In this document: positions 1 to 46,388 of the stretch, in pieces
Numbering within the stretch: position 1 is the first letter of the stretch
Layout of the letters: each line of letters begins with the position of its first letter
Origin: Sanyastnella coralliicola
GTDB lineage: Bacteria > Bacteroidota > Bacteroidia > Flavobacteriales_D > Sanyastnellaceae
DNA: 64,000 bases
NCBI RefSeq assembly: GCF_030845195.1
Contig: NZ_CP132543.1
Coordinates: 3,427,501-3,491,500 of the forward strand
Direction: 5' to 3'
The notes under the pieces: generated by a model
The model's input: only the letters and a program-made list of their open reading frames with translations
Told to the model about the DNA's origin: nothing
The model's database searches: none
Translations under genes and position numbers: made by a program

Positions 1-1
1 T

Positions 2-325
2 CAACTGCCATTTGTAAACATATGGATATATACTCTTTTACAAAATCCTGTTTTCAACTTCATCGAATTAAAAATTGATTATTCGAGAATATTGCGAGTG
101 AGAGAACAAGCTCTTATCGCTCTTAGATTAAATGATCGAACATGGATAAAAGACCATAAAGACGGTTTAGATGTTCTTGGCCCTTGGGACAAAAGAGCCA
201 TTCTTCATTCTGCAGTGATTTTATCAAGTGATGAATTGAAACATTGGGCTGGTCTTGTTTCGTCTAGAGGAAATATTTTAGACAAGGCAGTTGCAGCATA
301 TGTTATTGCCGAAAAAAAGAAATAA
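2..325 (+). CDS. C-terminal end of a protein cut by the window edge, possibly a defence-type reverse transcriptase
   Basis: The frame is open from base 2 to the TAA at 323-325, so this is the 3' end of a longer gene, about 107 residues visible. The visible part is predicted helical, with the segments REQALIALRLNDRTWI, LGPWDKRAILHSAVIL and NILDKAVAAYVI. From memory this pattern (a helical repeat, then a WxKRA helix, then a short tail after an N-x-L-D-K-A-V segment) resembles the C-terminal tails of reverse transcriptases of the UG/DRT defence type. No catalytic YxDD region lies inside the window, so the assignment is a guess. The codon use and AT-richness resemble the decayed gene that follows, which fits an accessory region. 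An internal TTG at 92 could be read as a start, but the upstream frame has no stop, so truncation is more likely. Confidence 0.5.
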   Translation, partial: QLPFVNIWIYTLLQNPVFNFIELKIDYSRILRVREQALIALRLNDRTWIKDHKDGLDVLGPWDKRAILHSAVILSSDELKHWAGLVSSRGNILDKAVAAYVIAEKKK

Positions 326-353
326 CTATGTACAACATGGTATATAATATATA

Positions 354-364
354 CCCTGCGGGAC
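354..364 (+). repeat. Direct 11-mer, copy 1, left of the decayed gene
   Basis: CCCTGCGGGAC, matched with one mismatch by CCCTACGGGAC at 980-990. The two copies bracket the decayed gene at 398-973 almost exactly. They may be remnants of gene-cassette or insertion boundaries. Confidence 0.35.
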
Positions 365-397
365 GCGAACCGCACACAGAACGTTGGCCAACATCAA

Positions 398-973
398 ATG
401 AAAATCGAATTTAATCGATATAAAATTTCCAGCGGAGACTATTTGAACGGCTTTATCGATAATGCACTGCAATTTAAGTTACGGTCTTCCGGTTGGTTCG
501 TATGGAAAAATACTCAACTCGTTTTTGACAACAATGACAACTTGTTGTTTTAAAGCAAAAAGACAAAGGGTTTTACCCAAATACAAGATTTCAAACTCAG
601 AAAAAGTAATAGGTGTTTTCAAACCAAAAAACATATGGAAACTCCACTAAATACTTCATGTTGAAAATGACCATTATGACATATTGGGCATAAAGGAAAC
701 AAGGTTTCAATTTTTGAAGATGGAAAACAAATTGCTTGGTTCCATAAAGAGGCGATTTCATGGTTCAATGGAATTAACTACACTTTGACGTGTAATTCTG
801 ATTCTAATATAAATGTCTTAGCGTTAATTGTGCTCTGTTGGAATGATTTCAAAGAAATGAACGATTCAGAGCATTCAACAGTGACTTTTGACATAGGTAA
901 CATTGGACCTGAAGCACGGAAATTTGACAAGAAATGGAGGGAAAATAAAAACCTCTCCCAACAAAATCTATAA
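398..973 (+). pseudogene. Decayed gene of about 190 codons (two frameshifts, one stop)
   Basis: Three consecutive frames read as one protein. Frame A runs from ATG 398 to a TAA at 551 (51 residues, ending FDNNDNLLF). Skipping one T of the run at 548-551 continues in a second frame with KAKRQRVLPKYKISNSEK, then an in-frame TAA at 648-650, then VENDHYDILGIK. A second shift near 690 restores the first frame at GNKVSIFEDGKQIAWF, which runs to TAA 971-973. The joined product has alternating short beta-type segments (KVIGVFKP, KVSIFEDGKQIAWF) of the kind seen in tubby/LOR-like folds; that family assignment is only a guess. No other gene in the window shows frameshifts, so true decay is more likely than sequencing error. 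Flanked by an imperfect direct 11-mer. Confidence 0.6.
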
Positions 974-979
974 GCAATG

Positions 980-990
980 CCCTACGGGAC
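980..990 (+). repeat. Direct 11-mer, copy 2, right of the decayed gene
   Basis: CCCTACGGGAC, partner of 354-364. The 974-1126 stretch holds nothing else recognisable. Confidence 0.35.
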
Positions 991-1126
991 AATGCAAATG
1001 GCAAAACCATCGAACCCACCACTTCCATACTTTCCAAATGTCAACCGCAAGAAGAGGCAGAACACCCCACACAACAACAACCTCAAAAGCAAACAAAGAA
1101 AAGTAGGATAACAAATAGTTTAGTCG

Positions 1127-1855
1127 TCACTCCGGCTCCGCATCCCGAGACCTCCTCCGCTTCCTAATCGGAATAAATACCCCCCCTTCAATCCCCAAAG
1201 AACCATTCCGTTGCTTAATCACATCTTCATCTTTGAACTGCGCTGTCAGTTGTTGATTCCAGATCGCCATGACGCGGTACCCGAAGCGTCGGGTAATCAA
1301 TCCTCTGTACTCCAACCCGAAATGAAGATCAGCTCCGAAGTTCTTGTAGAATCGGTTCTCTGCACGATAGCTCTCTGCTGAACAGAAAGTTTCTCCTTCT
1401 TCCTTTACATGCTCACTATCAATGTTGAATCTTCCACTAAGTCCAATCTGGGGGATGAACCCAAAATCTCGAAGGAATCTTCGATGGGTGAACATGAGCC
1501 GAGCATTAACAAAAGAGTACTCCATGGAGTATCGAAAGAGGTCAGTAAATCCTCCACCGGCCCCGACTGAACCGGCACACGTAGAGAATTCTTCAGATTC
1601 TTGAAACTTGATGTATTGAACCGACCCTGAAAGACCAAAACGAACGTATCTCCTGCGAAACCACACTCCGTAGCTAAACGCCGGCTCAATCTTCGAATTA
1701 TCATAATAATCCGGACGATCAGGCACCCACCGATAGACGTAATGAGCCCCTAAAACTGGACCCACTGCAAATCGAGGAGTGAAAAACTTCTGTGGCCCAT
1801 TAGCCGCAGCAGCCAACGGCAAAAGCAATAAAACCAAGAGTAATTTCTTCAGCAT
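1127..1855 (-). CDS. Outer-membrane beta-barrel-like protein with signal peptide
   Basis: 242 residues. Unrecognised family. The start is placed at ATG 1853-1855 because it gives a clean signal peptide (MLKKLLLVLLLLPLAAAANG). The open frame continues upstream to 1972, but that extension is translated repeat spacer and not a protein. After the signal come alternating aromatic and glycine-rich strands (YVRFGLSGSVQYIKF, GADLHFGLEYRGL, FGYRVMAIWNQQLTAQF), typical of small outer-membrane barrels. The C-terminus is basic and then acidic (RKRRRSRDAEPE), without the usual terminal aromatic residue, so it may end in a short periplasmic or cytosolic tail. It lies on the same strand as the next secreted gene (start 2437). 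Confidence 0.65.
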   Translation of the reverse strand: MLKKLLLVLLLLPLAAAANGPQKFFTPRFAVGPVLGAHYVYRWVPDRPDYYDNSKIEPAFSYGVWFRRRYVRFGLSGSVQYIKFQESEEFSTCAGSVGAGGGFTDLFRYSMEYSFVNARLMFTHRRFLRDFGFIPQIGLSGRFNIDSEHVKEEGETFCSAESYRAENRFYKNFGADLHFGLEYRGLITRRFGYRVMAIWNQQLTAQFKDEDVIKQRNGSLGIEGGVFIPIRKRRRSRDAEPE

Positions 1856-1874
1856 GGTAGGAGGGTTAAGGTAG

Positions 1875-1994
1875 GCGGAACGTGGAATGTTGAATGTGGA
1901 ACGCGGCGATCGTAAATCACGGACGCCGGATGCCGGACGCCGGAATAGTAAAACATTTAGCCTTTTCGCCATTTAGCCATTTCGCCCTTCAGCC
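1875..1994 (+). repeat. Spacer made of degenerate heptamer and octamer tandem repeats
   Basis: Three arrays sit side by side. GTGGAAT-type heptamers occupy 1875-1902: GCGGAAC, GTGGAAT, GTTGAAT, GTGGAAC. CGGACGC-type heptamers occupy 1920-1947: CGGACGC, CGGATGC, CGGACGC, CGGAATA. Octamers occupy 1955-1994: ATTTAGCC, TTTTCGCC, ATTTAGCC, ATTTCGCC, CTTCAGCC. The period is exact while the units drift, so this is not a simple microsatellite. The same families recur in five other spacers of the window. Confidence 0.85.
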
Positions 1995-2002
1995 CTAAAA
2001 AA

Positions 2003-2437
2003 TCAATTCCGAACCGCCTCCTCCCTCTTCCGCGAAAACTCCTTCCCCAACTTAGCCCCATGCTGAGCTAACTTCTCTTCATTAATTCCCTCCTTCGACA
2101 AGGCTTTTGCGGCCATCAAGCGTTGCACAACGTTCTTCTTAAACCCGGTCGTTGCCTGCTCTTCATACAAGATGGTATTCAGATCTTCGGGTTTATAGAC
2201 TTCGTAGTAATTCAAGTTCAGGTCTTGAACATACACCCACTTATAAAACAGCAATTGATTCCCCTCCAAGTCGTTGATGTAGAATGAACCGCGCGTAGAG
2301 GCATCATCTTCGAATCCACATACTTTCGCCCCGTTCACGAAGGCTGCATCTCCTTTCACTTTCACTTTTTGGGCCTGCACACTTCCGCCAAAGGCGAGAA
2401 AAGCCAACATCAGGCTCAAGGTCATTGTCCATTTCAT
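2003..2437 (-). CDS. Small secreted protein of unknown function
   Basis: 144 residues. Unrecognised. There is a clear signal peptide (MKWTMTLSLMLAFLAFGGSVQAQ) with cleavage predicted after AQA or QAQ. The mature part begins with a short strand-rich section with one cysteine (GAKVCGFEDD) and FYINDLEGNQLLFYKWVYV, followed by an amphipathic helical and basic C-terminal half (KALSKEGINEEKLAQHGAKL) ending in KREEAVRN. It carries no sorting domain, so it is probably periplasmic. It lies on the same strand as the barrel-like gene 147 nt downstream, but the repeat spacer between them makes a common transcript uncertain. Confidence 0.6.
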   Translation of the reverse strand: MKWTMTLSLMLAFLAFGGSVQAQKVKVKGDAAFVNGAKVCGFEDDASTRGSFYINDLEGNQLLFYKWVYVQDLNLNYYEVYKPEDLNTILYEEQATTGFKKNVVQRLMAAKALSKEGINEEKLAQHGAKLGKEFSRKREEAVRN

Positions 2438-2474
2438 AGTTCACGTATTAGTATCTCAAAAATGGGAAAAATAG

Positions 2475-2639
2475 TCGAGCGTCGAGCTTCCAGCGTCTAG
2501 AGTCGAGTGACTAGGGTCTAGAGTCTGGTTCATTTGGGTGGAGCGTGGAATGTGGAACGAGACGAAGACCCCAAATTCAGTATTCACTAATTATTAATCA
2601 TTATTCAAAACCCGCATACAGCCTACCGCATACTGCATA
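2475..2639 (+). repeat. Spacer with four successive heptamer arrays
   Basis: TCTAGAG-type units run 2475-2528: TCGAGCG, TCGAGCT, TCCAGCG, TCTAGAG, TCGAGTG, ACTAGGG, TCTAGAG and a partial unit. GTGGAAT-type units run 2538-2558: GTGGAGC, GTGGAAT, GTGGAAC. An AT-rich set runs 2575-2609: ATTCAGT, ATTCACT, AATTATT, AATCATT, ATTCAAA. A fourth set runs 2612-2639: CCGCATA, CAGCCTA, CCGCATA, CTGCATA. All keep a strict 7-bp period. This fills almost the whole gap between the divergent genes at 2437 and 2701. Confidence 0.85.
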
Positions 2640-2700
2640 CGTTAAGCCAAAACCCCAATCTTTCCCTACCTTTATTCTCTCGCCTTCCAACCTTGAATAC

Positions 2701-4248
2701 TTGAAGTACGTCATTAACATCCTCCTATTCTGCGGTTCGCTCCATTGCTTTGCCCAAGGGTTTAATCAAAGGTATGAGCTTGGCGAAACTGGTGCTTTTT
2801 TCTCAGGAATTGTTGAGGCTAATAACTCGTTCTATCTCATTGGTTCCGCGGTCTATAACCAAGAACAAGAGGCGGTGATGGTGGAGATTAGTCAAACCGG
2901 AGAATTTATCAATGAAGTTCCTGCCATAGGACCTTATTATTGGCTCGCACTTTGGGGCAATGACTGGGAAATCTGGGATGACGAATTGTTTGTTCAAACG
3001 GGATTCACGCTAGATTCGCTGGGTTTTCACCGTGCATACATCGGTTTCTGGAATCATCAAGGTGAGGTCGTCGATACCATTTTTCATTATAGTCCGCTTT
3101 TTGATCCCGACGACCCAGAACCGTTAGATCAATATCGACCAACATTAATGGCGATCGACGAAGACCAGAACATTTACACCTTGAGTTTCATTGCCGCACC
3201 TTACAGGGAGATCTCAAAATTCGATCAAAATGGAGTGAAGCAATGGTCTACATTAATTGAAGACGACCCAGATTGGATTGCCGATTACTATGAGGGCATT
3301 ACTTACCACGACGGAATTGTATACTTAGGACAGGACTTCATCTACGGCATCAACCTTGAATCAGGGGGTAATATTCTTCGTTTCGATGCGGAAACCGGTG
3401 CTCAACTGGAAAGTATTGTTAACAATGCCAATTCGCCCGATGGAATTTTTGACATGCTAGTTCTTGACAACGGAGATCTCATCATCGCCAGCGGATTTAC
3501 CCATCCTGAACAAGTATGGCGCGCGCCTGGAGTGGGAAGGATAAACGAAGCCGGCGATATCCTCTGGAACCGAATTTTCGGTGATGGGGAACAAGGTGAA
3601 CATCCTGAGATGAAGATTCTAGTAGATAATGGTGATGGTACCTTCACTGCCGCAGGGAACTATGCTGTTGTTCGAGATGAGCCCGATGAGATACTTGGGT
3701 GGATCGACCGCTATGGAGTCTTAGCAAAACTTGATTATGATGGCAACGTGGTGTGGTCACATACCTACAGCGGTGTCCTTACTTGGTTCGAAATAAACGA
3801 AATCAATGACATGATCGCGACTGCCGATGGAGGGTATATCTTCTGCGGAGAGTCTCGAGATTCAGATGTCGAAAACCCGAACTTTGAAGCTCCAGCACAA
3901 CGAGGATGGGTGGTCAAAGTCGATGAATTCGGTTGTGTAGAACCAGGATGCCAATACGTGAACGTGGAGGAAATCATGCTAGGCCTTGAAAACACCATGT
4001 CTATCGCTCCCAACCCCAGCCAAGGCCTCGTGAACCTAAACTTTGAATTCCCACAAGACTTCACCCCTCCCAACAAATCAGAACTCCGAGTTTACGACCT
4101 CTCAGGAGCTTGTGTATTCGCACAACAAATCAACTCGCCAAGCACATTGCAAATCAACCTCCAACACCTGGCCAACGGGCAATACATCATGCACTGGCTA
4201 ACAGATCAGCTCCTACTCGATTCTATCTCATTGGTGATCTCGAAATAG
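2701..4248 (+). CDS. T9SS-exported beta-propeller-like protein with type A sorting domain
   Basis: 515 residues from the proposed TTG start at 2701, which gives a good signal peptide (KYVINILLFCGSLHCFAQ). ATGs further upstream fall inside heptamer repeats and would put the signal deep inside the protein. The body has recurring strand motifs of the propeller type: GNILRFDAETGAQLESI, GDILWNRIFGDGEQGE, GNVVWSHTYSG and GGYIFCGESRDS, the last being typical of delta-60/PQQ-like repeats in secreted Bacteroidota proteins. The last 80 residues are a T9SS type A sorting domain (SIAPNPSQGLVNLNFEF, YDLSGACVF, LANGQYIMHW). The product should be exported to the surface or the medium; its ligand is unknown. 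It is flanked on both sides by the same composite repeat in the same orientation. Confidence 0.75.
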   Translation: MKYVINILLFCGSLHCFAQGFNQRYELGETGAFFSGIVEANNSFYLIGSAVYNQEQEAVMVEISQTGEFINEVPAIGPYYWLALWGNDWEIWDDELFVQTGFTLDSLGFHRAYIGFWNHQGEVVDTIFHYSPLFDPDDPEPLDQYRPTLMAIDEDQNIYTLSFIAAPYREISKFDQNGVKQWSTLIEDDPDWIADYYEGITYHDGIVYLGQDFIYGINLESGGNILRFDAETGAQLESIVNNANSPDGIFDMLVLDNGDLIIASGFTHPEQVWRAPGVGRINEAGDILWNRIFGDGEQGEHPEMKILVDNGDGTFTAAGNYAVVRDEPDEILGWIDRYGVLAKLDYDGNVVWSHTYSGVLTWFEINEINDMIATADGGYIFCGESRDSDVENPNFEAPAQRGWVVKVDEFGCVEPGCQYVNVEEIMLGLENTMSIAPNPSQGLVNLNFEFPQDFTPPNKSELRVYDLSGACVFAQQINSPSTLQINLQHLANGQYIMHWLTDQLLLDSISLVISK

Positions 4249-4426
4249 TCTGGAGTCCAGAGACTAGGGTCTAGAGTCTGATTTTTTCTGTGGAGCGTGT
4301 AATGTTGAATGTGGAAGGAACCATGAACCTCAAATCAATCAACACATTTCGCCATTTCGCCATTTTGCCTTTTAGCCCTTTTACGAAAAAAGGCATAAGC
4401 CTTAAGCCTTACGCCATACGCCTTAG
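4248..4426 (+). repeat. Spacer with heptamer and octamer arrays, composite of the same families
   Basis: TCTAGAG-type units run 4248-4282: GTCTGGA, GTCCAGA, GACTAGG, GTCTAGA, GTCTGAT. GTGGAAT-type units run 4290-4317: GTGGAGC, GTGTAAT, GTTGAAT, GTGGAAG. Octamers run 4346-4385: ATTTCGCC, ATTTCGCC, ATTTTGCC, TTTTAGCC, CTTTTACG. A GCCTTAC-type set runs 4392-4426: GGCATAA, GCCTTAA, GCCTTAC, GCCATAC, GCCTTAG. The order TCTAGAG array then GTGGAAT array repeats that of 2475-2558. The first unit overlaps the stop codon of the preceding gene. Confidence 0.85.
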
Positions 4427-4436
4427 AACATTATCG

Positions 4437-4444
4437 TATTTTTG
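4437..4444 (+). promoter_or_regulatory. Putative -7 promoter element of glyQS
   Basis: TATTTTTG fits the Bacteroidota -7 consensus TAnnTTTG and ends 20 nt before the glyQS ATG. No clear TTG -33 box was seen at the expected distance; that position lies in the last heptamer array. Confidence 0.5.
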
Positions 4445-4464
4445 CCGCCGAACAACGCATAACC

Positions 4465-6000
4465 ATGGCACAAGACGATAAGCTCAAGAAAGTAATTGGC
4501 CACGCAAAAGAGTATGGCTTCGTATTTCCGAGTAGTGAAATTTATGACGGACTCAGCGCCGCGTATGACTACGGTCAGCTTGGGGTTGAACTCAAGAATA
4601 ACATTAAGAACTACTGGTGGACAGCCATGGTGAAGATGCATGAGAACATCGTTGGACTTGATGCCTCGATCTTCATGCACCCAACTACCTGGAAAGCTTC
4701 AGGACACGTTGATGCGTTCAATGATCCGTTGATCGATAACAAAGATTCGAAGAAACGTTACCGCGCTGATGTCTTGATCGAAGAGCATGTAGGCAAGATT
4801 GAAGCGAAGATCATGAAAGACGTGACCAAGGCGAAAAAGCGTTTTGGTGATGCCTTTGATGAAAAGCAGTTCCGTGAAACGAACCCGAATGTGTTGCGTC
4901 GTCAGACTCAAATTGACGACATCAATGCGCGTTTCAAAACAGCGATGGACAATGAAGACCTCGCCGGGGTGAAGCAGTTGATTGAAGACCTTGAGATTGC
5001 AGATCCTGAAACAGGGAGCCGTAACTGGACAGACGTTCGTCAGTTCAACTTGATGTTCAAGACGGAGCTCGGAGCAGTATCAGGAGATAGCGGGGTGATC
5101 TACCTTCGTCCGGAAACGGCGCAAGGGATCTTCGTGAACTTCTTGAACGTGCAGAAGACCGGTCGTATGAAGATTCCTTTCGGAATTGCTCAGATTGGTA
5201 AGGCCTTCCGTAACGAGATCATCGCACGTCAGTTCATCTTCCGTATGCGTGAGTTTGAACAGATGGAGATGCAATTCTTTATCAAGCCTGGAACGCAAGG
5301 TGAATGGTACGATTACTGGAAAAACCAGCGTATCAAGTGGCACCAGAAACTAGGCATAGGAGAAGATTTCTACCGCTTCCATGACCACATCAAGTTGGCA
5401 CACTACGCTGATGCTGCTTGTGATATCGAATTCAACTTCCCTATGGGCTTCAAAGAGTTGGAGGGAATCCACAGTCGTACTGACTTCGACTTGAAGAGCC
5501 ACGAAGAACACAGTGGTAAGAAGCTTCAATACTTTGATCCAGAAGAAAACAAGAACTACGTACCGTACGTGATCGAGACCTCGATCGGACTTGACCGTAT
5601 GTTCCTCGCTGTATTGAGCTCTTCTTTCAACGAAGAGAAACTGGAAGATGGAAATGAACGAACAGTCCTAAATATTCCACCTGCGTTGGCGCCAGTGAAA
5701 GCGGCTGTACTTCCATTGGTGAAGAAAGACGGACTTCCAGAAAAAGCGCGTGAAATCTTACGTGATCTACAGTTCGATTTCAACTGCCAGTACGACGAGA
5801 AAGACGCGATCGGTCGTCGTTACCGTCGTCAAGATGCGATTGGAACTCCATACTGTATCACCGTTGACCACGACACCTTGGAAGACAACATGGTCACGAT
5901 TCGTGAGCGTGATGGTATGACACAAGACCGTGTGGCCATTGCTGATGTGCACAAGATCATCGCTGAACGCGTGTCGCTTCGCAAGTTGCTAGGCGAATAA
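4465..6000 (+). CDS. glyQS: Glycyl-tRNA synthetase, single-chain (alpha2) type
   Basis: 511 residues, the usual length for the homodimeric class II enzyme that charges tRNA-Gly with glycine in the cytoplasm. Seen: the N-terminal catalytic-core start (YGFVFPSSEIYDGLSAAYDYG), motif 2 with FRNEIIARQFIFRMREFEQ around residues 247-266, motif 3 with IGLDRMFLAVL around residue 374, and a C-terminal anticodon-binding domain (residues about 400-511: LPLVKKDGLPEKAREIL, DEKDAIGRRYRRQDAIGTPYC, ITVDHDTLEDNMVTIRERD). The start at 4465 follows a TAnnTTTG promoter element. pssA follows 28 nt later on the same strand, so the two may be cotranscribed. Confidence 0.97.
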   Translation: MAQDDKLKKVIGHAKEYGFVFPSSEIYDGLSAAYDYGQLGVELKNNIKNYWWTAMVKMHENIVGLDASIFMHPTTWKASGHVDAFNDPLIDNKDSKKRYRADVLIEEHVGKIEAKIMKDVTKAKKRFGDAFDEKQFRETNPNVLRRQTQIDDINARFKTAMDNEDLAGVKQLIEDLEIADPETGSRNWTDVRQFNLMFKTELGAVSGDSGVIYLRPETAQGIFVNFLNVQKTGRMKIPFGIAQIGKAFRNEIIARQFIFRMREFEQMEMQFFIKPGTQGEWYDYWKNQRIKWHQKLGIGEDFYRFHDHIKLAHYADAACDIEFNFPMGFKELEGIHSRTDFDLKSHEEHSGKKLQYFDPEENKNYVPYVIETSIGLDRMFLAVLSSSFNEEKLEDGNERTVLNIPPALAPVKAAVLPLVKKDGLPEKAREILRDLQFDFNCQYDEKDAIGRRYRRQDAIGTPYCITVDHDTLEDNMVTIRERDGMTQDRVAIADVHKIIAERVSLRKLLGE

Positions 6001-6028
6001 GCCACTGGCTTTTCGTTACTTCGTATTC

Positions 6029-6748
6029 ATGCGCGGACTCATCCCAAATGCTTTTACCATGGGCAACCTCTTGTGTGGTTGCTTAGCGATTATGTCGTTG
6101 TACGAGCATGACAATGACCCGATGGTTTTCATTGGGTTGTTGATTCTGGCTGCTTTCCTTGACCTTTTCGACGGACTCTTTGCCCGCCTTTTAGGAGTGG
6201 GGAGTGAAATGGGAAAACAGCTTGATTCTCTGGCCGATGCGGTGACCTTCGGAATTGCCCCAGCCCTCATGGTTGTGGAGTTACTACTCGATGACACCGA
6301 TGGCAACGGGCTAGCACTAGGAGGACTTCTACTCGCTGTAGCGTCCATCTACCGCCTGGCCAAATTCAATGTAGACACTCGCCAATCCGATAGCTTTATC
6401 GGGCTTCCAACTCCTTCAAACGCTCTCTTTTGGATCGCCATGCTAGGCATGTGGTCAGAGGGCACGATTTCGGTAGGGCAGATTCCCATCTGGGGTTGGC
6501 TCATCATGATCGTTCTGATGAGTTGGTTTATGATTTCTGAGATTCCTTTGATCTCTTTGAAGTTTAAGCATCTTCGCTACCGCGGAAACGAACCACGGTT
6601 CTTCTTGATCATCGGTGGAATCATCACCTTGAGTTTGTGTTGGATTCTTGCTAACAGCTATTTCCTAGCTGTCCCGATTATTCTACTTTTGTACCTGCTG
6701 ATCTCGCTGTGGGATCGTAAAAACCATCAGAATGAAATTTCGCGCTGA
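6029..6748 (+). CDS. pssA: CDP-diacylglycerol-serine O-phosphatidyltransferase
   Basis: 239 residues, integral membrane. It makes phosphatidylserine from CDP-diacylglycerol and serine, the first step to phosphatidylethanolamine. The CDP-alcohol phosphotransferase signature D-x2-DG-x2-AR-x8-G-x3-D-x3-D is complete at about residues 47-70 (DLFDGLFARL, then the last two aspartates in KQLDSLAD). The N-terminal IPNAFTMGNLLCGC and the NVDTRQSDSFIGLPTPSNALFW segment are typical of the Bacteroidota PssA group rather than of PgsA. There are six or more hydrophobic segments. Its 3' end overlaps purS by 17 nt, implying translational coupling. Confidence 0.93.
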   Translation: MRGLIPNAFTMGNLLCGCLAIMSLYEHDNDPMVFIGLLILAAFLDLFDGLFARLLGVGSEMGKQLDSLADAVTFGIAPALMVVELLLDDTDGNGLALGGLLLAVASIYRLAKFNVDTRQSDSFIGLPTPSNALFWIAMLGMWSEGTISVGQIPIWGWLIMIVLMSWFMISEIPLISLKFKHLRYRGNEPRFFLIIGGIITLSLCWILANSYFLAVPIILLLYLLISLWDRKNHQNEISR

Positions 6749-6992
6749 AATCGACATCATGCCACTAGAGGCACTACTTGACCCTCAAGGGAAAGCTGTA
6801 TCCAACAACATGAAGAATATTGGTCTGGAAGAGATCGACAATGTTCGTATCGGTAAGCACATTACGCTGCAAGTAGAAGCTGATTCTCAGGCTATCGCCG
6901 AAGAAAAGGTGGATGAAGCATGTAAGAAACTCCTATGTAACCAGATCATGGAGTACTACAGCTTCCGCGTTAGCGAAATGCAGGAGGCTTAA
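6732..6992 (+). CDS. purS: Phosphoribosylformylglycinamidine synthase subunit PurS
   Basis: 86 residues, the standard length of PurS, the small structural subunit that joins PurL and PurQ in the fourth step of purine synthesis. Seen: KFRAEIDIMPLEALLDPQGKAV at the start, the central NIGLEEIDNVRIGKHITLQV, and the C-terminal ACKKLLCNQIMEYYSFRV. The start overlaps pssA by 17 nt. purL and purQ are not in the window, so purS is separated from its partners here. Its stop abuts the stop of the convergent gene at 6993. Confidence 0.92.
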   Translation: MKFRAEIDIMPLEALLDPQGKAVSNNMKNIGLEEIDNVRIGKHITLQVEADSQAIAEEKVDEACKKLLCNQIMEYYSFRVSEMQEA

Positions 6993-7469
6993 TTACTCCA
7001 GCAAGCCCAACGCTAACAACACGGCAAAGTATTCTGCCTGTGTTGCCCTTCCTTGTATAAAACAGACCCGATCAAACGGACTCGTTGAGGTGCCTTTGAA
7101 CACCCCAATGCGAAGCCAGGTGTAGAGCAAATCTTCTTCCTTGGTGCTATTTCCGCGGTAGAATTTACCGTCTTTGATGGTGTACAGTGGAATGCTGAAG
7201 TCCTCATTACCACGGTAGATCTTGTTGTCGTTGACCGTGAACATGACCTCTTGTTCAGCGTAACTCCAGCCTCGGTATACTTTGTTCTCACGAACGGTGT
7301 ACATCGCGCCTTCACTTGAAGTGCGGTTACCTTCCACCAAGGCCCCCTCCTTATTGATGTTCACGAGCATATCAGTGAAAAACAGACGGTTGTCTGGATA
7401 CACCAAGATCTGCGCCTTCACGAGTACGGAGGCGAATAGGAGGGCCGATATGAGGATCGTTCTTTTCAA
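6993..7469 (-). CDS. Small secreted protein with tandem YRG repeats
   Basis: 158 residues. Unrecognised family. Signal peptide MKRTILISALLFASVLVKAQ. The mature part contains three to four tandem units of about 22 residues with the core F/Y-T-V/I-x-D/E-N/G-K-x-Y-R-G: MYTVRENKVYRG, MFTVNDNKIYRG, LYTIKDGKFYRG and a diverged LYTWLRIGVFKG. Such strand-turn repeats suggest a small beta-sheet stack, comparable in look to MORN-type or WG-type repeats. It lacks a sorting domain. It converges on purS with no gap between the stop codons. Confidence 0.6.
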   Translation of the reverse strand: MKRTILISALLFASVLVKAQILVYPDNRLFFTDMLVNINKEGALVEGNRTSSEGAMYTVRENKVYRGWSYAEQEVMFTVNDNKIYRGNEDFSIPLYTIKDGKFYRGNSTKEEDLLYTWLRIGVFKGTSTSPFDRVCFIQGRATQAEYFAVLLALGLLE

Positions 7470-7603
7470 AACGCTTGCTTCTCAGCGAATTACACGCAGA
7501 CATCTACGCGTACGCTATGCGCAATCACGCGCAATATAGCCGCGTGCAAGACCCGCTAGCCGATGAAACGGCCCGATGGTAGTGTAGGATGTTTCTGAAG
7601 GAA

Positions 7604-8857
7604 TTAGTGTTGAGCCAGCTCACTCCGCTTAAAACTATACCCGAGCAACAAGCCAATGAGGGCATAAGCGGTGAATAAATAGAAGCCCAACTGAAGAGTT
7701 GAATTGTTGGTGGTGAACACCTCTAAGGTGCCGCTTTCACGCTCCAATTGAGTCAGTTGGCTGTTGATGACCCCACTAAATCCGATAAAGGCCATAAAGA
7801 GCGATACCACCATCACATCGGCCATGCTCCATTTCGCAGATCGAAAGAGGAAAAAGCGAATGAACTTGCTTTTAGGAATGTGCTGGCGCACTTGTGCGAT
7901 CATCGTAAAAATCAGCTTCAAGAGCGGCATCAGAATACTAAACGAGAAGATTAACAAGGCGACTACCATCAGCGGCGCATCCCCCTGTTCAGTCATGATC
8001 ATCACCACTTCCAGAATACTCTTGCTTTGGAAGAACAAGACCTGGTCTTGAAAGCTGACTGGTTCCCCTATCAACAAAAAGCTAAACTCCGTGATTGTCG
8101 CCTCGATATCGATCATGGGTAAGGTGACACCTCCAGCCAATAAGGCGAAGGCCGACAAGCTGAAGCACAACCGTTCAATTTGACTCTTCGCCCCCGTGAA
8201 AACGAGGATCAACAAGGCGATAACAGACGCCGCCAAACCAATCACAAAGGCACGTGAATTGGCCTTCGCTTTGACGCTTGTTTCTTCGAGGTAAAGCAGG
8301 CAGTCTTCTCGGTTTTCTTGTTGATGTCGGACTAAGATCTCATTCAAGATGGAGTAGTCCATCTCTCCTACCGTTTCATCGGCGAACTCATCGATTTTTT
8401 CGATCAATAAATCCTTGATTTCTCCTTTGGTTTCAGGATCATTCAAGCGATCGACAATCATTTCGGCATATTGAGGAATTCCCTTTCGAACATCGCTGAA
8501 GGGAACGAGAATATCCGAGGCTAGCTGCCGAAACATCCCTCCTAACGACTTCTTATTCTCCTCCCTCAGTACCTTTTCTACCTCATCAATGAGCTGGCGA
8601 AGGATCTCTTCCGTTCGCTGTATAACCTCTTCGCGATTCCCTTCCGTGATTTCGAATTCATTGACCTTTTTCTCTACGATCTCTGCCGCCACGATTTTCC
8701 ATTCGTCGACATTGAAAAGACCGTATTTGATGTGGCTGAGCTCCACCGCATCCGCCTTCAGGGAACGACGAAACGTCTCTACCTGCCAGGTCTTCCAAGA
8801 AAAGAAGCAGGTGGAAATGAATAGGGCAATCGCAAGGGTGTTTCGAAGAAAGTCCAC
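7604..8857 (-). CDS. PqiA-family (paraquat-inducible protein A) inner-membrane protein with a large helical insertion
   Basis: 417 residues. One N-terminal membrane segment (residues about 5-22) is followed by about 170 residues of charged helix (KKVNEFEITEGNREEVIQ, EILRQLIDEVEKVLREE), predicted periplasmic. Then comes a four-helix PqiA-like membrane unit: GLAASVIALLILVFTG, FALLAGGVTLPMIDI, ALLIFSFSILMPLLKLIF, and the family hallmark SAKWSMADVMVVSLFMAFIG. PqiA proteins work with MCE-domain PqiB in lipid movement across the envelope in proteobacteria. No MCE gene is nearby, and the long helical domain is not part of E. coli PqiA, so the role here is open. Confidence 0.7.
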   Translation of the reverse strand: MDFLRNTLAIALFISTCFFSWKTWQVETFRRSLKADAVELSHIKYGLFNVDEWKIVAAEIVEKKVNEFEITEGNREEVIQRTEEILRQLIDEVEKVLREENKKSLGGMFRQLASDILVPFSDVRKGIPQYAEMIVDRLNDPETKGEIKDLLIEKIDEFADETVGEMDYSILNEILVRHQQENREDCLLYLEETSVKAKANSRAFVIGLAASVIALLILVFTGAKSQIERLCFSLSAFALLAGGVTLPMIDIEATITEFSFLLIGEPVSFQDQVLFFQSKSILEVVMIMTEQGDAPLMVVALLIFSFSILMPLLKLIFTMIAQVRQHIPKSKFIRFFLFRSAKWSMADVMVVSLFMAFIGFSGVINSQLTQLERESGTLEVFTTNNSTLQLGFYLFTAYALIGLLLGYSFKRSELAQH

Positions 8858-8887
8858 AGTAGCCGGTTAATGCCTAAAACTACCAAT

Positions 8888-10162
8888 TTATTGCACGATC
8901 ACCCGTTGCGTGCTGCCATCAATCGTTAAGAAATAAAGTCCCGGGGTGAATGAAGACAAATCAATACTGGCTTGGTTTCCAGCGGCGGTGAGTTGACCAA
9001 CCGCATTACGAAGCTCCCAAGAAATCGCTCCTTGAATACCTTGGATTGTCAGTTGATCTTGAGCTGGATTGGGATAGATCTTCCAAGTAGGAATATCCGA
9101 TTCCGCGATAGCGACATCAGAACAAATCACATTACTCAACAACTCCCACAACTCAATGCTAAAGTTGGTCGGAACCAATGAATTATCAGGCGATGCGCCC
9201 ATGCGAATGACCACCAAGTCTTCAGAACTCACCACATTGATCAATTGCGAGTCTTTGCCGATGGCCGCGATCATATCATCTGGAGCAGAAGGAACAATAG
9301 GCCCCGGCAACTCGAGCTGCAGTCCAGGGAGCAAGTGAGAATCTTGTCCGTTCAGCCACCACAAATACCCGTAGCTCTCATTCAGCTCCTGCGAAGGCGT
9401 CACCATAGCTTGAAAAGAATCCGTGTCATCCATAATGAAGTCGCCATCCCAATAGCCATTGTTCTCAATCATCAATCCGAAACGGGCCATGTCGCGCGCA
9501 TCGGAAAGGTAGATGCGGTTGAATCCAATCGGCGCATAGAACCCAGACATGCCAATGTCATCAAGCTTCGAAAAAGTGTAGAGGTTGTAGTTCATGCCTA
9601 CCGCCTCTTCAATCACTTCAGTCAAGAGCGTGTACGGACCGTTATGATACGCCCAGCGATCACCCGGCGACTCCAAAAACTGAAGACACTCAGGGTCTGT
9701 ACAAAAGACATCATTCACTCCGTCATCCAATCCACTGGTCATGGTCAACTGATTCCAAACGGTAATGGCTTGTTCTTGTTCAGGCGTGAGGCTAGTCCAA
9801 CCTTCTCCCAGATAATTACTCGTAGGGTCATTGATATCCAAAAACCCTTCTTCTTGCGCCATTCCAACCGTAAAGGCAGTCACTGTCTTTCCTGCTGAAT
9901 TCCAGACCCACAGGCTGTCTTCGTTGAATTCATCGAAGTACTCTTCAATGACAATTCTTCCTTGATGCAGTACAATGAATGCCTTTGAATTGCGATCATC
10001 CAGAAAAGAGATCAGGGTGTCTAACTCATCCTCGCACCACCCCAAAGCGTCCATGCCAATCGTATCCCATTCCTCTGAATCATTCGGCGGGTAGTAATCT
10101 GCCAACTGAGAAAAGAGCGCACACGGGAGTAGGATGAGGCACAGAGAGAGGAGGGATTTCAT
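8888..10162 (-). CDS. Secreted serine hydrolase of the class C beta-lactamase fold with T9SS domain
   Basis: 424 residues. Signal peptide MKSLLSLCLILLPCALFSQ. The beta-lactamase/penicillin-binding fold is marked by the catalytic S-x-x-K as SAGK (Ser89, Lys92) and the Y-x-N box as YHN (Tyr172-Asn174). GYLWWLNGQDS is typical of EstB/class C-like esterases and peptidases rather than of true beta-lactamases. Residues from about 352 form a T9SS type A sorting domain (WKIYPNPAQDQLTIQ, NAVGQL, FTPGLYFLTI), so the enzyme should end up on the surface or outside. The substrate is unknown. It is 30 nt downstream, on the opposite strand pattern, of nothing regulatory that I can see. Confidence 0.8.
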   Translation of the reverse strand: MKSLLSLCLILLPCALFSQLADYYPPNDSEEWDTIGMDALGWCEDELDTLISFLDDRNSKAFIVLHQGRIVIEEYFDEFNEDSLWVWNSAGKTVTAFTVGMAQEEGFLDINDPTSNYLGEGWTSLTPEQEQAITVWNQLTMTSGLDDGVNDVFCTDPECLQFLESPGDRWAYHNGPYTLLTEVIEEAVGMNYNLYTFSKLDDIGMSGFYAPIGFNRIYLSDARDMARFGLMIENNGYWDGDFIMDDTDSFQAMVTPSQELNESYGYLWWLNGQDSHLLPGLQLELPGPIVPSAPDDMIAAIGKDSQLINVVSSEDLVVIRMGASPDNSLVPTNFSIELWELLSNVICSDVAIAESDIPTWKIYPNPAQDQLTIQGIQGAISWELRNAVGQLTAAGNQASIDLSSFTPGLYFLTIDGSTQRVIVQ

Positions 10163-10198
10163 GGGAGTTAGACTTTGGTTTGAAGGTAGGGATTATTC

Positions 10199-10240
10199 CG
10201 GCGTCCGGCATCCGGCGTCCGGCTTGCGGCTTGCGGCGTC
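10199..10240 (+). repeat. Array of six CGGCGTC-type heptamers
   Basis: CGGCGTC, CGGCATC, CGGCGTC, CGGCTTG, CGGCTTG, CGGCGTC in perfect register. This is the reverse-complement orientation of the CGGACGC family at 1920 and 11588. It lies between the ends of two minus-strand secreted genes. Confidence 0.85.
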
Positions 10241-10256
10241 CGTTAATTAATACCTG

Positions 10257-11522
10257 TTATTCTGCTCCGTATCCGAATACGTTCAAAATCAAAATAAGAT
10301 CCTGCACATTGACAACGAGATCCTCATTGATATCCGCTTCACATTCAACACCCAGACAACCGAAGGTGTTAAGCATTAGCATCAAATCCTCTACTCCTAC
10401 ATCGCCATCGCCAGTGATATCTTCTTCCAATTCACAGGAACCATCATCACAACCTGCATCTGGATCATAGTTCGGTGCATCCATCAAGGTACATCCAGGG
10501 AAGGTACATGAGCCATCATCGTTGTTGGCAGCTGGATTATAATTGCATGCTCCATCCTCCATGCATCCGAAGACCGGGAACTCAGGAATTTCAAAGAACA
10601 TATCCCACGAGCAACCGCTTTCAGGAAACGACAATACGTAGTTGTAGATACCTGCATCTAGTCCATCAAGCTCAAAAACAACATCTGGATCCAAGGGCCC
10701 GGAATAAAAATCCCCAGTCATTTCAAACCCCTCCTGTAATGCATTGAACGACAATTCAACAGAAGCATTTTCATTGTTCTCATCAGCAGGCTCAATGATC
10801 TCAAAATTGGTGTTTGGACCTTCTTCGTCGTACACATCATTGATGGTTACCTTTCGAAGTATTTCGCCTCCAGAACTGATCCCAACCCAATAAACCCCTG
10901 GATTTAAGTTGGTCAACAAAACTTCGCCATCTATAGACGTCTCTTCAATTTGATTAATGGGTGTTCCACTAGAGTGAACAACGCCAACAGCACCTGTGGG
11001 GACGTCCCCTAACGTCCACCCAATAAGCGCGTCTCCATCTCCTGAATTCGCACAGGTTGCACTTGAAATGGTGTAAACCTGTGCACCGCAACACCAAGGA
11101 GAGCTATAAGGGTAAGCCATAAAGCTGTCAGACCACGTGCAACCAACTCCACCTCCGATTGGTTCGTAATCTACACTGATGCTGATTGTAAAGACCTCGT
11201 CAATTCCGAAATTATATCGCCATAGTTGATCTCCTTGCTGAGTCCAACTTCCCCCTAAAAAACCGAAACCAGCAGACGGTGAAGTACTCACTGAAGAAAC
11301 TTCATACCCCTCTGGAATCTCGATCAAAACAGACCCGGTCTCCCATGGTAAGTTTTGAGTTCTATACAACAAATCCACACTAGGACACTGCGCAAACGTT
11401 GTGCTCGAGATGCATAAACACGTCAAAGCAGACAGGAATAAAGACTTGGATAAAGAGAAATGACAACGGCTCTCAAAAGCACGGTAAAAAAGGCCCATAA
11501 GCCCTTCTTTCAAGATTTTCAT
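10257..11522 (-). CDS. Secreted protein with GCM/CNYNP repeats and dockerin-like C-terminus
   Basis: 421 residues. The signal segment is unusually far in (SKSLFLSALTCLCISSTTFAQ, residues about 25-45); a later start cannot be excluded. The N-terminal 200 residues are Ig/beta-sandwich-like (LIEIPEGYEVSSVSTSPS, LWRYNFGIDEVFTISISV). Residues about 320-365 hold two Cys repeats of the type GC-x-n-CNYNP-n-DDGSC (CMEDGACNYNPAANNDDGSC, then CDDGSC), common in marine Bacteroidota surface proteins. The end is a dockerin-like pair of Ca-binding loops: DITGDGDVGVEDLMLMLNTF and DINEDLVVNVQDLILILNVF. There is no T9SS domain. Confidence 0.7.
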   Translation of the reverse strand: MKILKEGLMGLFYRAFESRCHFSLSKSLFLSALTCLCISSTTFAQCPSVDLLYRTQNLPWETGSVLIEIPEGYEVSSVSTSPSAGFGFLGGSWTQQGDQLWRYNFGIDEVFTISISVDYEPIGGGVGCTWSDSFMAYPYSSPWCCGAQVYTISSATCANSGDGDALIGWTLGDVPTGAVGVVHSSGTPINQIEETSIDGEVLLTNLNPGVYWVGISSGGEILRKVTINDVYDEEGPNTNFEIIEPADENNENASVELSFNALQEGFEMTGDFYSGPLDPDVVFELDGLDAGIYNYVLSFPESGCSWDMFFEIPEFPVFGCMEDGACNYNPAANNDDGSCTFPGCTLMDAPNYDPDAGCDDGSCELEEDITGDGDVGVEDLMLMLNTFGCLGVECEADINEDLVVNVQDLILILNVFGYGAE

Positions 11523-11587
11523 AGTAAGCGTTTTAGTGACACGAAAGGTATGAAAATCTCCTAGTCCAATAAAAACAACAATCCCAA

Positions 11588-11621
11588 CGGACGCCGGACG
11601 CCGGACGCCGGATGCAGATGC
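11588..11621 (+). repeat. Array of CGGACGC-type heptamers
   Basis: CGGACGC three times, CGGATGC, then AGATGC, in register. It lies between the start of the secreted gene at 11522 and the tRNA-Cys terminator. Confidence 0.8.
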
Positions 11622-11629
11622 CGGAAAAG

Positions 11630-11655
11630 AAAAAACCCCGCCAATACTAGCGAGG
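11630..11655 (-). terminator. Intrinsic terminator of tRNA-Cys
   Basis: On the minus strand CCTCGC pairs with GCGGGG (one U-G pair) around an 8-nt loop, followed by six T. It starts 7 nt after the tRNA 3' end. Confidence 0.75.
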
Positions 11656-11661
11656 TCTCTG

Positions 11662-11733
11662 AGGTCTGGAGCGGATTCGAACCGCTGTAACTGGTTTTGC
11701 AGACCAGTGCCTAAGCCCCTCGGCCACCAGACC
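11662..11733 (-). tRNA. tRNA-Cys (anticodon GCA)
   Basis: Read on the minus strand: acceptor arms GGTCTGG and CCAGACC pair perfectly (7 bp). The D arm contains GGGGCTTAGGC. The anticodon arm is CTGGT-CTGCAAA-ACCAG with anticodon GCA. The variable loop is TTAC. The T arm is AGCGG-TTCGAAT-CCGCT. The discriminator base is T, matching the U73 identity element of tRNA-Cys. The 3' CCA is not encoded. A consensus promoter lies just upstream and an intrinsic terminator just downstream, so it is a single-gene unit. Confidence 0.97.
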
Positions 11734-11751
11734 CTTTCCGTCGAAGGGATG

Positions 11752-11784
11752 CAAATATAACAAATCCCTTATGGTTTTCCACAA
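11752..11784 (-). promoter_or_regulatory. Promoter of tRNA-Cys
   Basis: On the minus strand: TTG (11782-11784), 22 nt, then TATATTTG (11752-11759), a full match to the Bacteroidota -7 element TAnnTTTG. It lies 18 nt before the tRNA. Confidence 0.65.
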
Positions 11785-11864
11785 TCATTACGCAAGCCTG
11801 TGCATAGGGTTACAATTTCTGCCTTAGATGCCGAATTTCCAGCGGATTGAGTGAAGCTATTGCT

Positions 11865-11872
11865 TAGCTTTG
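11865..11872 (+). promoter_or_regulatory. Putative -7 promoter element of pgk
   Basis: TAGCTTTG, a perfect TAnnTTTG, ends 17 nt before the pgk ATG. The nearest TTG upstream (11847-11849) is only 15 nt away, shorter than usual. Confidence 0.5.
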
Positions 11873-11889
11873 CCGCAAAATTTTAACCG

Positions 11890-13077
11890 ATGGCATCGAT
11901 TACCGACTACGATTTCAATGGAAAACGCGCCCTGATTCGCGTTGATTTCAATGTTCCGCTGAACGACCAATTTGAAGTGACTGATAATACGCGTATCCGA
12001 GCTGCGATTCCTACGATCAAACACATCTTGGATAACGGAGGAAGCGTGGTGTTGATGTCGCACTTGGGTCGTCCGAAAGGACATGATGATGCCTTTTCGA
12101 TGCGCCACATTGTAAGTGAAGTAGAAAAGCTTCTCGGTCATTCGGTGACCTTCGCCGGTGATTGCATCAGCAATGAAGCCAAGTCGAAAACGTCGGTTGC
12201 GAAGCCAGGTGAAGTATTCTTGCTTGACAACCTTCGCTTCCACAAAGAAGAAAAAGAAGGCGATGAATTTTTCGCTGGCCAGCTAGCTGAACACGGAGAT
12301 GTCTACTTGAACGATGCCTTCGGAACAGCGCACCGTGCCCATGCCAGTACGGCGGTGATTGCGCGATTCTTCCCGCACGATAAGCTCTTCGGTTTCGTGA
12401 TGGAAAATGAGATCAAGAACATCGAAAAAGTTCTTGGTGACGCACAAAAGCCGGTAACCGCGATCGTAGGTGGTGCGAAGGTTTCTTCGAAAATCACCAT
12501 CCTCGCTAACCTGCTTGACAAGGTTGATCACATCCTGATCGGTGGGGGCATGGCTTACACCTTCCTTAAGGCGCAAGGCGGTGACACGGGTTCTAGTCTG
12601 GTTGAAGATGACTTCCTTGATAAGGCGCGTGAGATTAACGCTAGCGCGGAATCGAAAGGGGTTCAAATCCACATTCCTGCTGACTCTGTAGTCGCTGATA
12701 AGTTTGACAACGAAGCCAATACACAGGTGGTAGCTTCTAACGCTATCGCGGAAGGATGGATGGGCCTTGACATCGCTGATCAAGCGATTGAAGCGTACAA
12801 GAATGTGCTGACTGAAAGCAAGACCATCCTTTGGAATGGACCAATGGGTGTATTCGAGATGTCTTCGTTCGCCAAAGGAACCGAAGCGATTGCACGACAC
12901 CTTGCTGAAGTCACTAAAAACGGAGCCTTCACCTTGATTGGTGGTGGTGATTCTGTCGCTGCGATCAACAAGTTTGAACTCGCTGATCAAGTGTCATATG
13001 TGAGTACAGGAGGAGGCGCAATGCTCGAGTACCTGGAAGGAAAAGTGCTTCCTGGAATCGCAGCAATCCGCTCGTAA
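11890..13077 (+). CDS. pgk: Phosphoglycerate kinase
   Basis: 395 residues, normal length. It transfers the acyl phosphate of 1,3-bisphosphoglycerate to ADP in glycolysis (cytoplasm). Seen: RVDFNVPLNDQFEVTDNTRI at the N-terminus, the substrate-binding SHLGRPKG, DNLRFHKEE, the hinge region GGAKVSSKITIL and GGGMAYTFLKAQG, and the ATP-binding TLIGGGDSVAAINKF and VSTGGGAMLEYLEG near the end. It is monocistronic as far as can be seen, with its own -7 element, and is followed by a secreted-protein gene 87 nt downstream. Confidence 0.98.
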   Translation: MASITDYDFNGKRALIRVDFNVPLNDQFEVTDNTRIRAAIPTIKHILDNGGSVVLMSHLGRPKGHDDAFSMRHIVSEVEKLLGHSVTFAGDCISNEAKSKTSVAKPGEVFLLDNLRFHKEEKEGDEFFAGQLAEHGDVYLNDAFGTAHRAHASTAVIARFFPHDKLFGFVMENEIKNIEKVLGDAQKPVTAIVGGAKVSSKITILANLLDKVDHILIGGGMAYTFLKAQGGDTGSSLVEDDFLDKAREINASAESKGVQIHIPADSVVADKFDNEANTQVVASNAIAEGWMGLDIADQAIEAYKNVLTESKTILWNGPMGVFEMSSFAKGTEAIARHLAEVTKNGAFTLIGGGDSVAAINKFELADQVSYVSTGGGAMLEYLEGKVLPGIAAIRS

Positions 13078-18557: not shown

Positions 18558-19283
18558 GTGCCTGATAGTCTCGTCATCATACCAACGTATAACGAAAAGG
18601 AAAACATTGAGCGCATTACGCGTAAAGTGTTCTCATTCGAACATCCATTCCACATTCTTGTGGTTGACGATGGTTCTCCTGATGGAACTGCAGATATCGT
18701 AAAAGGACTGCAACAAGAGTTTCCGGAGCGTCTGCACATTGTAGAACGTGAAGGGAAACTTGGTCTAGGTACAGCATACATCGCCGGATTCAGATGGGGA
18801 ATTGAACGTAAGTACGAGTACATCTTTGAGATGGATGCTGACTTCTCTCACAACCCTGAAGATTTGATTCGCCTTCGTCACGCTTGCGCGGAAGAAGGGG
18901 CTGATTTCGCCATTGGATCTCGTTACGTCAAAGGAGGAAAGGTTGACAACTGGCCGCTTAACCGCGTCATGATGAGCTTTTTCGCCTCGGTATACGTGAA
19001 CTCAATTCTTTGGATGGGAATTCGCGATTGTACAGCCGGTTTCAAGTGTTATACACGTAAAGTGTTGGAGACGATTGATCTTGATAGCATCACCTTCATT
19101 GGCTACGCTTTCCAGATTGAGATGAAGTACAAAGCTCAGCGACTTGGATTCAAGGCCAAAGAGGTACCGATCACCTTCATCGATCGCCAATACGGCGAAA
19201 GCAAGATGAGCATGGGCATCTTTAAAGAAGCCTTCTGGGGCGTTATGAAAATGCGCTTCATGAAAGTTAAACCAGCAAAGTAA
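18558..19283 (+). CDS. Polyprenol-phosphate mannosyltransferase-like GT2 glycosyltransferase
   Basis: 241 residues, GTG start at 18558. It is a soluble GT2 domain of the dolichol-phosphate mannose synthase type. Seen: VIIPTYNEKENIERI at the start, ILVVDDGSPDGTADIV (nucleotide-sugar binding), EMDADFSHNPEDL (the DxD metal site), GSRYVKGGKVDNWPLNR and the C-terminal QYGESKMS. Such enzymes charge polyprenyl phosphate with a sugar used for glycan or protein glycosylation at the membrane. There is no membrane anchor, as in the short form of the family. The dihydroorotase gene follows 9 nt later, an arrangement common in Flavobacteriales. Confidence 0.88.
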   Translation: MPDSLVIIPTYNEKENIERITRKVFSFEHPFHILVVDDGSPDGTADIVKGLQQEFPERLHIVEREGKLGLGTAYIAGFRWGIERKYEYIFEMDADFSHNPEDLIRLRHACAEEGADFAIGSRYVKGGKVDNWPLNRVMMSFFASVYVNSILWMGIRDCTAGFKCYTRKVLETIDLDSITFIGYAFQIEMKYKAQRLGFKAKEVPITFIDRQYGESKMSMGIFKEAFWGVMKMRFMKVKPAK

Positions 19284-46307: not shown

Positions 46308-46360
46308 GCATCTTCCGAATAATTCACAGAGAACCTGGGATTATTCACAAGAAACGGTTC

Positions 46361-46388
46361 TGGAATCCGGCATCCGGCGTCTGGCTTC
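46361..46388 (+). repeat. Array of four CGGCGTC-type heptamers
   Basis: TGGAATC, CGGCATC, CGGCGTC, TGGCTTC in register. It sits in the 332-nt gap between the giant gene's 3' end and rplM. The rest of the gap holds the rplM promoter, the terminator at 46517, and about 125 nt (46390-46516) in which I see nothing. Confidence 0.75.

Follow-up and report, generated by a model that had tools for sequence, protein, structure and literature searches.

Degenerate tandem arrays at the locus

We analyzed a 64-kb stretch of DNA (the window; G000:C1:3427501-3491500) from a Bacteroidota genome that consists of a single contig of 4,097,636 bp (G000). The neighbors of its glycyl-tRNA synthetase gene suggest the order Flavobacteriales. 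Gene calls came from a simple dicodon script in place of a published caller, and arrays were called by a lag scan over 21-base windows with a threshold of 15/21 identity, supplemented by TRF. Three spacers (1853-2002, 2438-2700 and 4249-4464) carried degenerate 7-bp and 8-bp tandem arrays. In the first, a plus-strand 7-bp array of the TGGAATG family (GCGGAACGTGGAATGTTGAATGTGGAACGCGG, 1875-1906; lag-7 scan, and TRF at 1877-1901 with period 7) was followed by a plus-strand 7-bp array of the CGGAYGC family (1919-1946; lag scan and TRF) and a minus-strand 8-bp array of the GGCKAAAT family (1956-1990; lag scan and TRF), which ends about 12 bp from the stop of gene 2003-2437. A 17-mer from the CGGAYGC array, CGGACGCCGGAYGCCGG, had 167 copies in G000, 26 in the congener G001 and none in the congener G002.

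The second spacer contained four 7-bp arrays. The first belongs to the GTCGAGC/GTCTAGA (TCTAGAG/GTCGAGC) family (2473-2526, plus strand; TRF and alignment) and is 28 bp, or 4 units, longer than its counterpart in G001. It is followed by a TGGAATG array (2536-2559, plus strand; lag scan), a weak ATTCACT/ATTCATT array that is conserved in G001 (2583-2611, plus strand; sequence reading and family recurrence) and a GTATGCN array read as GCATACC (2612-2641, minus strand; lag scan and TRF), at the right edge of which lies a gain/loss junction with respect to G001. The plus-strand gene at 2701-4248 encodes a protein with a type IX secretion C-terminal sorting domain and is absent at this position in G001. 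Downstream of it, the third spacer carried a plus-strand TCTAGAG array (4247-4283; TRF), part of a composite with a second copy to the left of gene 2701-4248, a plus-strand TGGAATG array (CGTGTAATGTTGAATGTGGAAGG, 4290-4315; sequence), a minus-strand 8-bp GGCKAAAT array (4342-4381; lag scan and TRF) and a minus-strand GGCTTAN array read as GCCTTAC (4388-4426; lag scan), which ends 38 bp before the start of the glycyl-tRNA synthetase gene and contains a gain/loss junction with respect to G001. Only three further period-7 arrays were identified in the window, all of the CGGAYGC family: the left (10195-10243, minus strand; lag scan and TRF) and right (11584-11618, plus strand; lag scan) members of an inverted pair, and an array common to G001 with unchanged length (46358-46388, minus strand; lag scan).

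The lag scan and TRF placed degenerate 7-bp and 8-bp arrays of the families named by an earlier sequence-only reading where that reading had put them. Its description of the spacers between 1875 and 4426 as filled by arrays was too strong, however, as the summed intervals amount to between about one half and two thirds of each. Taken alone, the ATTCACT stretch (about 2583-2611) fell below the period threshold, but it is supported by the recurrence of the ATTCATT family elsewhere (19 arrays). Across the window, lag 7 gave 122 21-base windows with at least 15/21 identity compared with a mean of 1.3 in Markov-resampled sequence, lag 8 gave 41 windows at 15/21 compared with 3.3, and lags 5, 10, 11 and 13 gave none. 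No tandem repeat in the window was stronger than a 139-bp period-6 AAGAAG array (26316-26454). The first 1.1 kb or so (1-1120) bears short open reading frames only and possibly represents decayed genes.

Array families in the genome and its relatives

Analysis of 854 kb of G000 revealed 198 period-7 arrays compared with about 5 in shuffled sequence; the sampled stretches were in part evenly spaced and in part picked at array-rich places, and densities per Mb therefrom do not equal the genome mean. The period-7 excess extended to other intergenic regions, with 188 of the 198 arrays located outside genes even though the sampled sequence is 89% coding. Arrays of periods 6, 9 and 12 in the same sample were mostly coding. 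Array density along the chromosome was very uneven, from 0 to 41 per 20 kb, and array strand followed no clear pattern with respect to the direction of replication of the G000 chromosome.

Clustering of consensus units did not reduce the arrays to a single repeat family but resolved about 12 recurring heptamer families (CGGAYGC, GTGGACN, TTCGTGG, ATTCATT, GCGGAWY, GGCKTTA, GTATGCN, GGCTTAN, TTAGTTN, TTATCGA, AGRGTCK and TGGAATG) and one main octamer family (GGCKAAAT). Identity at lag 7 within arrays was 0.79 and decayed with distance to 0.64. The number of units was narrow in some families, for example with three full units and a partial unit in 27/40 CGGAYGC arrays and four units in 16/28 GTGGACN arrays. 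Arrays were joined into composites with a preferred order and preferred gaps (octamer-GGCTTAN-octamer-CGGAYGC-inverted GTGGACN, and GCGGAWY-CGGAYGC-GTATGCN), and some switched family while keeping phase (L017 10085-10146 and L014 8921-9024). Flank profiles held little information content. The arrays were, as the sequence-only reading had held, unlike microsatellites or CRISPR; their units lie head to tail with no unique spacers between them, which rules out CRISPR arrays. At L014:4100-5500, a block of about 145-170 bp that includes a palindrome as well as CGGAYGC and GTGGAC arrays was itself tandemly repeated several times. The same locus (L014:4500-4660) also carried a dispersed repeat, about 150 bp long and not of heptamer type, with GGGCCCGCGG between GGTGGG-rich arms, and copies of about 80-86% identity were found at several places in G000 and G001.

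The two congeners differed in their units. G001, 94% identical, shares its unit families with G000, whereas G002, 77% identical, has the same 7-bp and 8-bp format at similar density with wholly different units. Arrays of the GTGGACN family (GTGGACNGTGGACNGTGGACNG) numbered 220, 102 and 0 in G000, G001 and G002, respectively, compared with 0, 0 and 136 for the GATCGGG family (GATCGGGGATCGGGGATC); neither sequence gave matches in the other relatives searched. Period 7 was far above other periods and shuffled sequence in all three genomes. In G002, (GA)n runs at L134:14184-14224 and 18744-18796 both follow heptamer arrays and share the same two ends (CGTAGAGAGA...GAATAA).

A wider sample comprised 80 Bacteroidota loci fetched via their glycyl-tRNA synthetase, from which low-complexity sequence was removed. 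It contained 26 period-7 arrays compared with 1, 5, 2, 5 and 1 for periods 5, 8, 10, 11 and 13, and 17 of the 80 loci had at least one period-7 array, each with its own units. The relatives G013 and G027 carried long drifting heptamer arrays of their own. In a search of 296 genomes of the phylum, TTCGTGG matched only G000 and, once, a single further genome. With GRTGCTTGRTGCTTGRTGCTTG, the reversed control pattern, 14 matches were obtained in G203 and 8 in G156, so these two carry an unrelated heptamer family.

Array turnover and gene gain or loss

Comparison of orthologous arrays in G000 and G001, at eleven loci and thus with small numbers, revealed a substitution divergence of 12.4% in arrays and 13.0% in flanking sequence. 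Gaps inside the arrays included 7, 7, 7, 14 and 28 bp, whereas no gap outside arrays was a multiple of 7. Array length therefore changes between these relatives in steps of 7, 14 or 28 bp, and because such gaps were confined to arrays and lag identity decays, a 7-nt slippage step has direct support. The origin by slippage that the sequence-only reading had suggested is thus upheld in part. Identical units occur at many spacers, and these counts suggest that independent slippage at each site is not enough; the presence of the same families at many spacers together with a disjoint set in a congener likewise indicates that slippage alone is insufficient.

Gene content changed at the arrays. In a 441-kb alignment of G000 and G001, we compared junctions between conserved genes at which at least 300 bp had been gained or lost with all others. 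Arrays were present at 11/21 gain/loss junctions and 10/158 other junctions (odds ratio 16, P = 6e-7), a figure based on 441 kb and 21 events; regions rich in arrays may be variable for other reasons. The association remained significant after control for spacer length (P = 4e-4 to 6e-6), and also if the count was restricted to arrays of the shorter allele (7/21 versus 9/158, P = 7e-4). At the locus, gene 2701-4248 is missing in G001, where a single composite corresponds to the two that flank the gene in G000. Neither this gene nor gene 2003-2437 was found in 19 kb of G002 around its synthetase, so the gain or loss of 2701-4248 is compatible with either direction. Gene 1127-1852 is a remnant in G001, with the break at the 8-bp array, and between the two members of the inverted CGGAYGC pair (10195-11618) G000 has a gene of about 1.1 kb where G001 has unrelated DNA about 110 bp long. 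Two paralogs of gene 2701-4248, 70% identical to it, lie at 3.84 Mb (G000 3835562-3839043) and are also missing from G001; this three-copy family with a type IX sorting tail is thus absent at all of its orthologous places in G001.

We consider it probable, though by no means certain, that the arrays are neutral or selfish dispersed heptamer satellites, with a minor octamer class, that are made by 7-nt slippage, copied between spacers and act as hot spots of rearrangement. Slippage or unequal pairing, seven nucleotides at a step, would create new units, point mutation would make their letters drift, and successful units and composites would spread between spacers via ectopic recombination or template copying. 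The resulting islands of homology would then promote the insertion, deletion and replacement of genes between arrays. We favor this satellite origin because it fits the excess of period 7, the intergenic placement, the recurring families, the order within composites, the decay of lag identity, the gaps in multiples of 7 bp, the spacer-like divergence, the junction association, the cases at 2473-4430 and 10195-11618 and the disjoint families of the congeners. It needs no trans-acting enzyme and no benefit to the cell. The narrow unit number of some families counts against it, as free slippage does not predict this.

The junction data could also be read as the work of a dedicated recombinase that swaps genes between arrays, in the manner of an integron, with the arrays as recombination sites or cassette boundaries. 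The excess of arrays at gain/loss junctions would agree with this, as would the different DNA enclosed by the inverted CGGAYGC pair in the two genomes and the position of gene 2701-4248 between two copies of one composite. However, homologous recombination yields the same signal, the many families have no apparent common core site and the junctions fall at differing places within arrays, which makes such a recombinase unlikely.

Origin of the arrays and relation to known repeats

The arrays were biased towards the 3' ends of genes: 55/242 distances to a stop were within 30 bp compared with 11/224 distances to a start, and just 3/224 of the latter were 10 bp or shorter. Density peaked in convergent spacers, and some arrays form inverted pairs around intrinsic terminators (3504024). 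This distribution is what regulatory or RNA elements might display, such as terminator shields, transcript stabilizers or protein-binding repeats; roles of this kind have been proposed for the TAACTGA repeats and the STRR of cyanobacteria. The 3' bias, however, fits plain avoidance of promoters equally well. Arrays occurred in both orientations relative to genes, with weak leanings per family relative to the upstream gene that rest on small counts; they were no more conserved than flanking spacer, their unit content was replaced between congeners, and Rfam models matched only a tRNA (11662-11733) in positions 1-12000 of the window. A regulatory role is therefore improbable, and the arrays are best read as occupying the non-regulatory part of spacers. 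A template for nucleoid or transcript structure, also raised by the sequence-only reading, found no support given the spacer-like divergence and the avoidance of gene starts.

We give equally little credence to an origin from REP- or MITE-like mobile elements, mobilized by a Y1 transposase, of which the arrays would be parts or remnants. Dispersed families, fixed gaps in the recurring composites, palindromic motifs scattered among spacers and an empty site in G001 for a 69-bp array of G000 speak for it. Yet the units are tandem and non-palindromic in comparison with REP/BIME, flanks are information-poor, and no target duplication or terminal inverted repeat was seen in flank profiles or at the 69-bp empty site (few sites). 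A link to the Y1 transposase was tested and was unsupported: each congener has one Y1_Tnp match, the weakest being in G000, which has the most arrays, and the matches are uncorrelated with array number. The short palindromes GGATGGATTTCATCCATCC, GGCGTTTATAAACGCC, GGCGCAAAATTGCGCC, GCACGCATGCGTGC and TTCCGCGCTAGCGAA form a second class of dispersed spacer motif in G000 and G001 that recurs in fixed phrases (e.g. G000:C1:3767225-3767717 and 3835249-3839335), also at gain/loss junctions.

It is very doubtful that Bacteroidota own a dedicated apparatus for writing or spreading tandem DNA, seven nucleotides at a time and independently of sequence, with an inherited format and a species-specific vocabulary of units. 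Least probable is that the arrays are written from a template by a dedicated enzyme, whether reverse transcriptase, primase-polymerase or some other that steps by seven. Such a mechanism would account for the fixed period, the free content, the narrow unit number of some families, the in-phase family switches and a format conserved while content is replaced between congeners, but slippage is the simpler account of the period and the long perfect arrays resemble slippage products.

As dispersed satellites, the arrays are best regarded as a multi-family form of the known bacterial heptamer repeats (STRR/LSSR). The STRR of filamentous cyanobacteria are tandem 7-bp units in intergenic regions with unknown function (PMC2670836), and the likeness in kind proposed from the sequence held in both respects, as the arrays are tandem, intergenic and many per genome (188/198 arrays; 167 copies of one 17-mer). 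They differ in that the phylum is another, about 12 degenerate families coexist in composites and an association with gain and loss was measured; STRR and LSSR have one or a few near-perfect consensus units, compared with the dozen or so families and lag-7 identity of 0.79 here. LSSR, as reported from Mrazek et al. 2007 in PMC4679880, include heptanucleotide repeats, which in most genomes outnumber every other class and for which polymerase slippage was proposed; LSSR are described there as simple sequence repeats and not as multi-family degenerate composites. TAACTGA direct repeats occur in Beggiatoaceae, Cyanobacteria and five Bacteroidetes and are intergenic, mostly just upstream of start codons (PMC4679880). 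They resemble the present arrays as intergenic heptamer direct repeats found in some Bacteroidetes, but consist of one exact unit, whereas here units drift and starts are avoided. Membership of that group was rejected, as TAACTGA is absent from the recurring families and so few arrays lie within 10 bp of a start. In Chloroflexus, (GATAGRA)n forms heptamer-derived satellites in one genome, as here, but with a single family (PMC6749651).

In the literature searched, which left most subscription journals outside, no multi-family heptamer arrays were found in Bacteroidota. That literature describes one heptamer family per genome, and reports many drifting families at once for none of STRR, LSSR, the GGGAATC repeats and the TAACTGA repeats. 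Here about a dozen families coexist, and two congeners use one format with disjoint vocabularies. This makes the question of why seven directly testable; published work has proposed polymerase contact length as the reason. The link to gain and loss suggests that the variable part of the gene complement in these bacteria is shaped by heptamer satellites. Xanthomonas (GGGAATC) and Nostoc (GGGGA(T/C)T) likewise have heptamer arrays, about 90% intergenic, with length that varies between relatives (PMC4692102). There, each genome has one G-quadruplex family, and repeat-bearing regions are more conserved than controls (PMC4692102), whereas gain and loss occur more often at the arrays described here. 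The GATCGGG family of G002 resembles these repeats in being G-rich.
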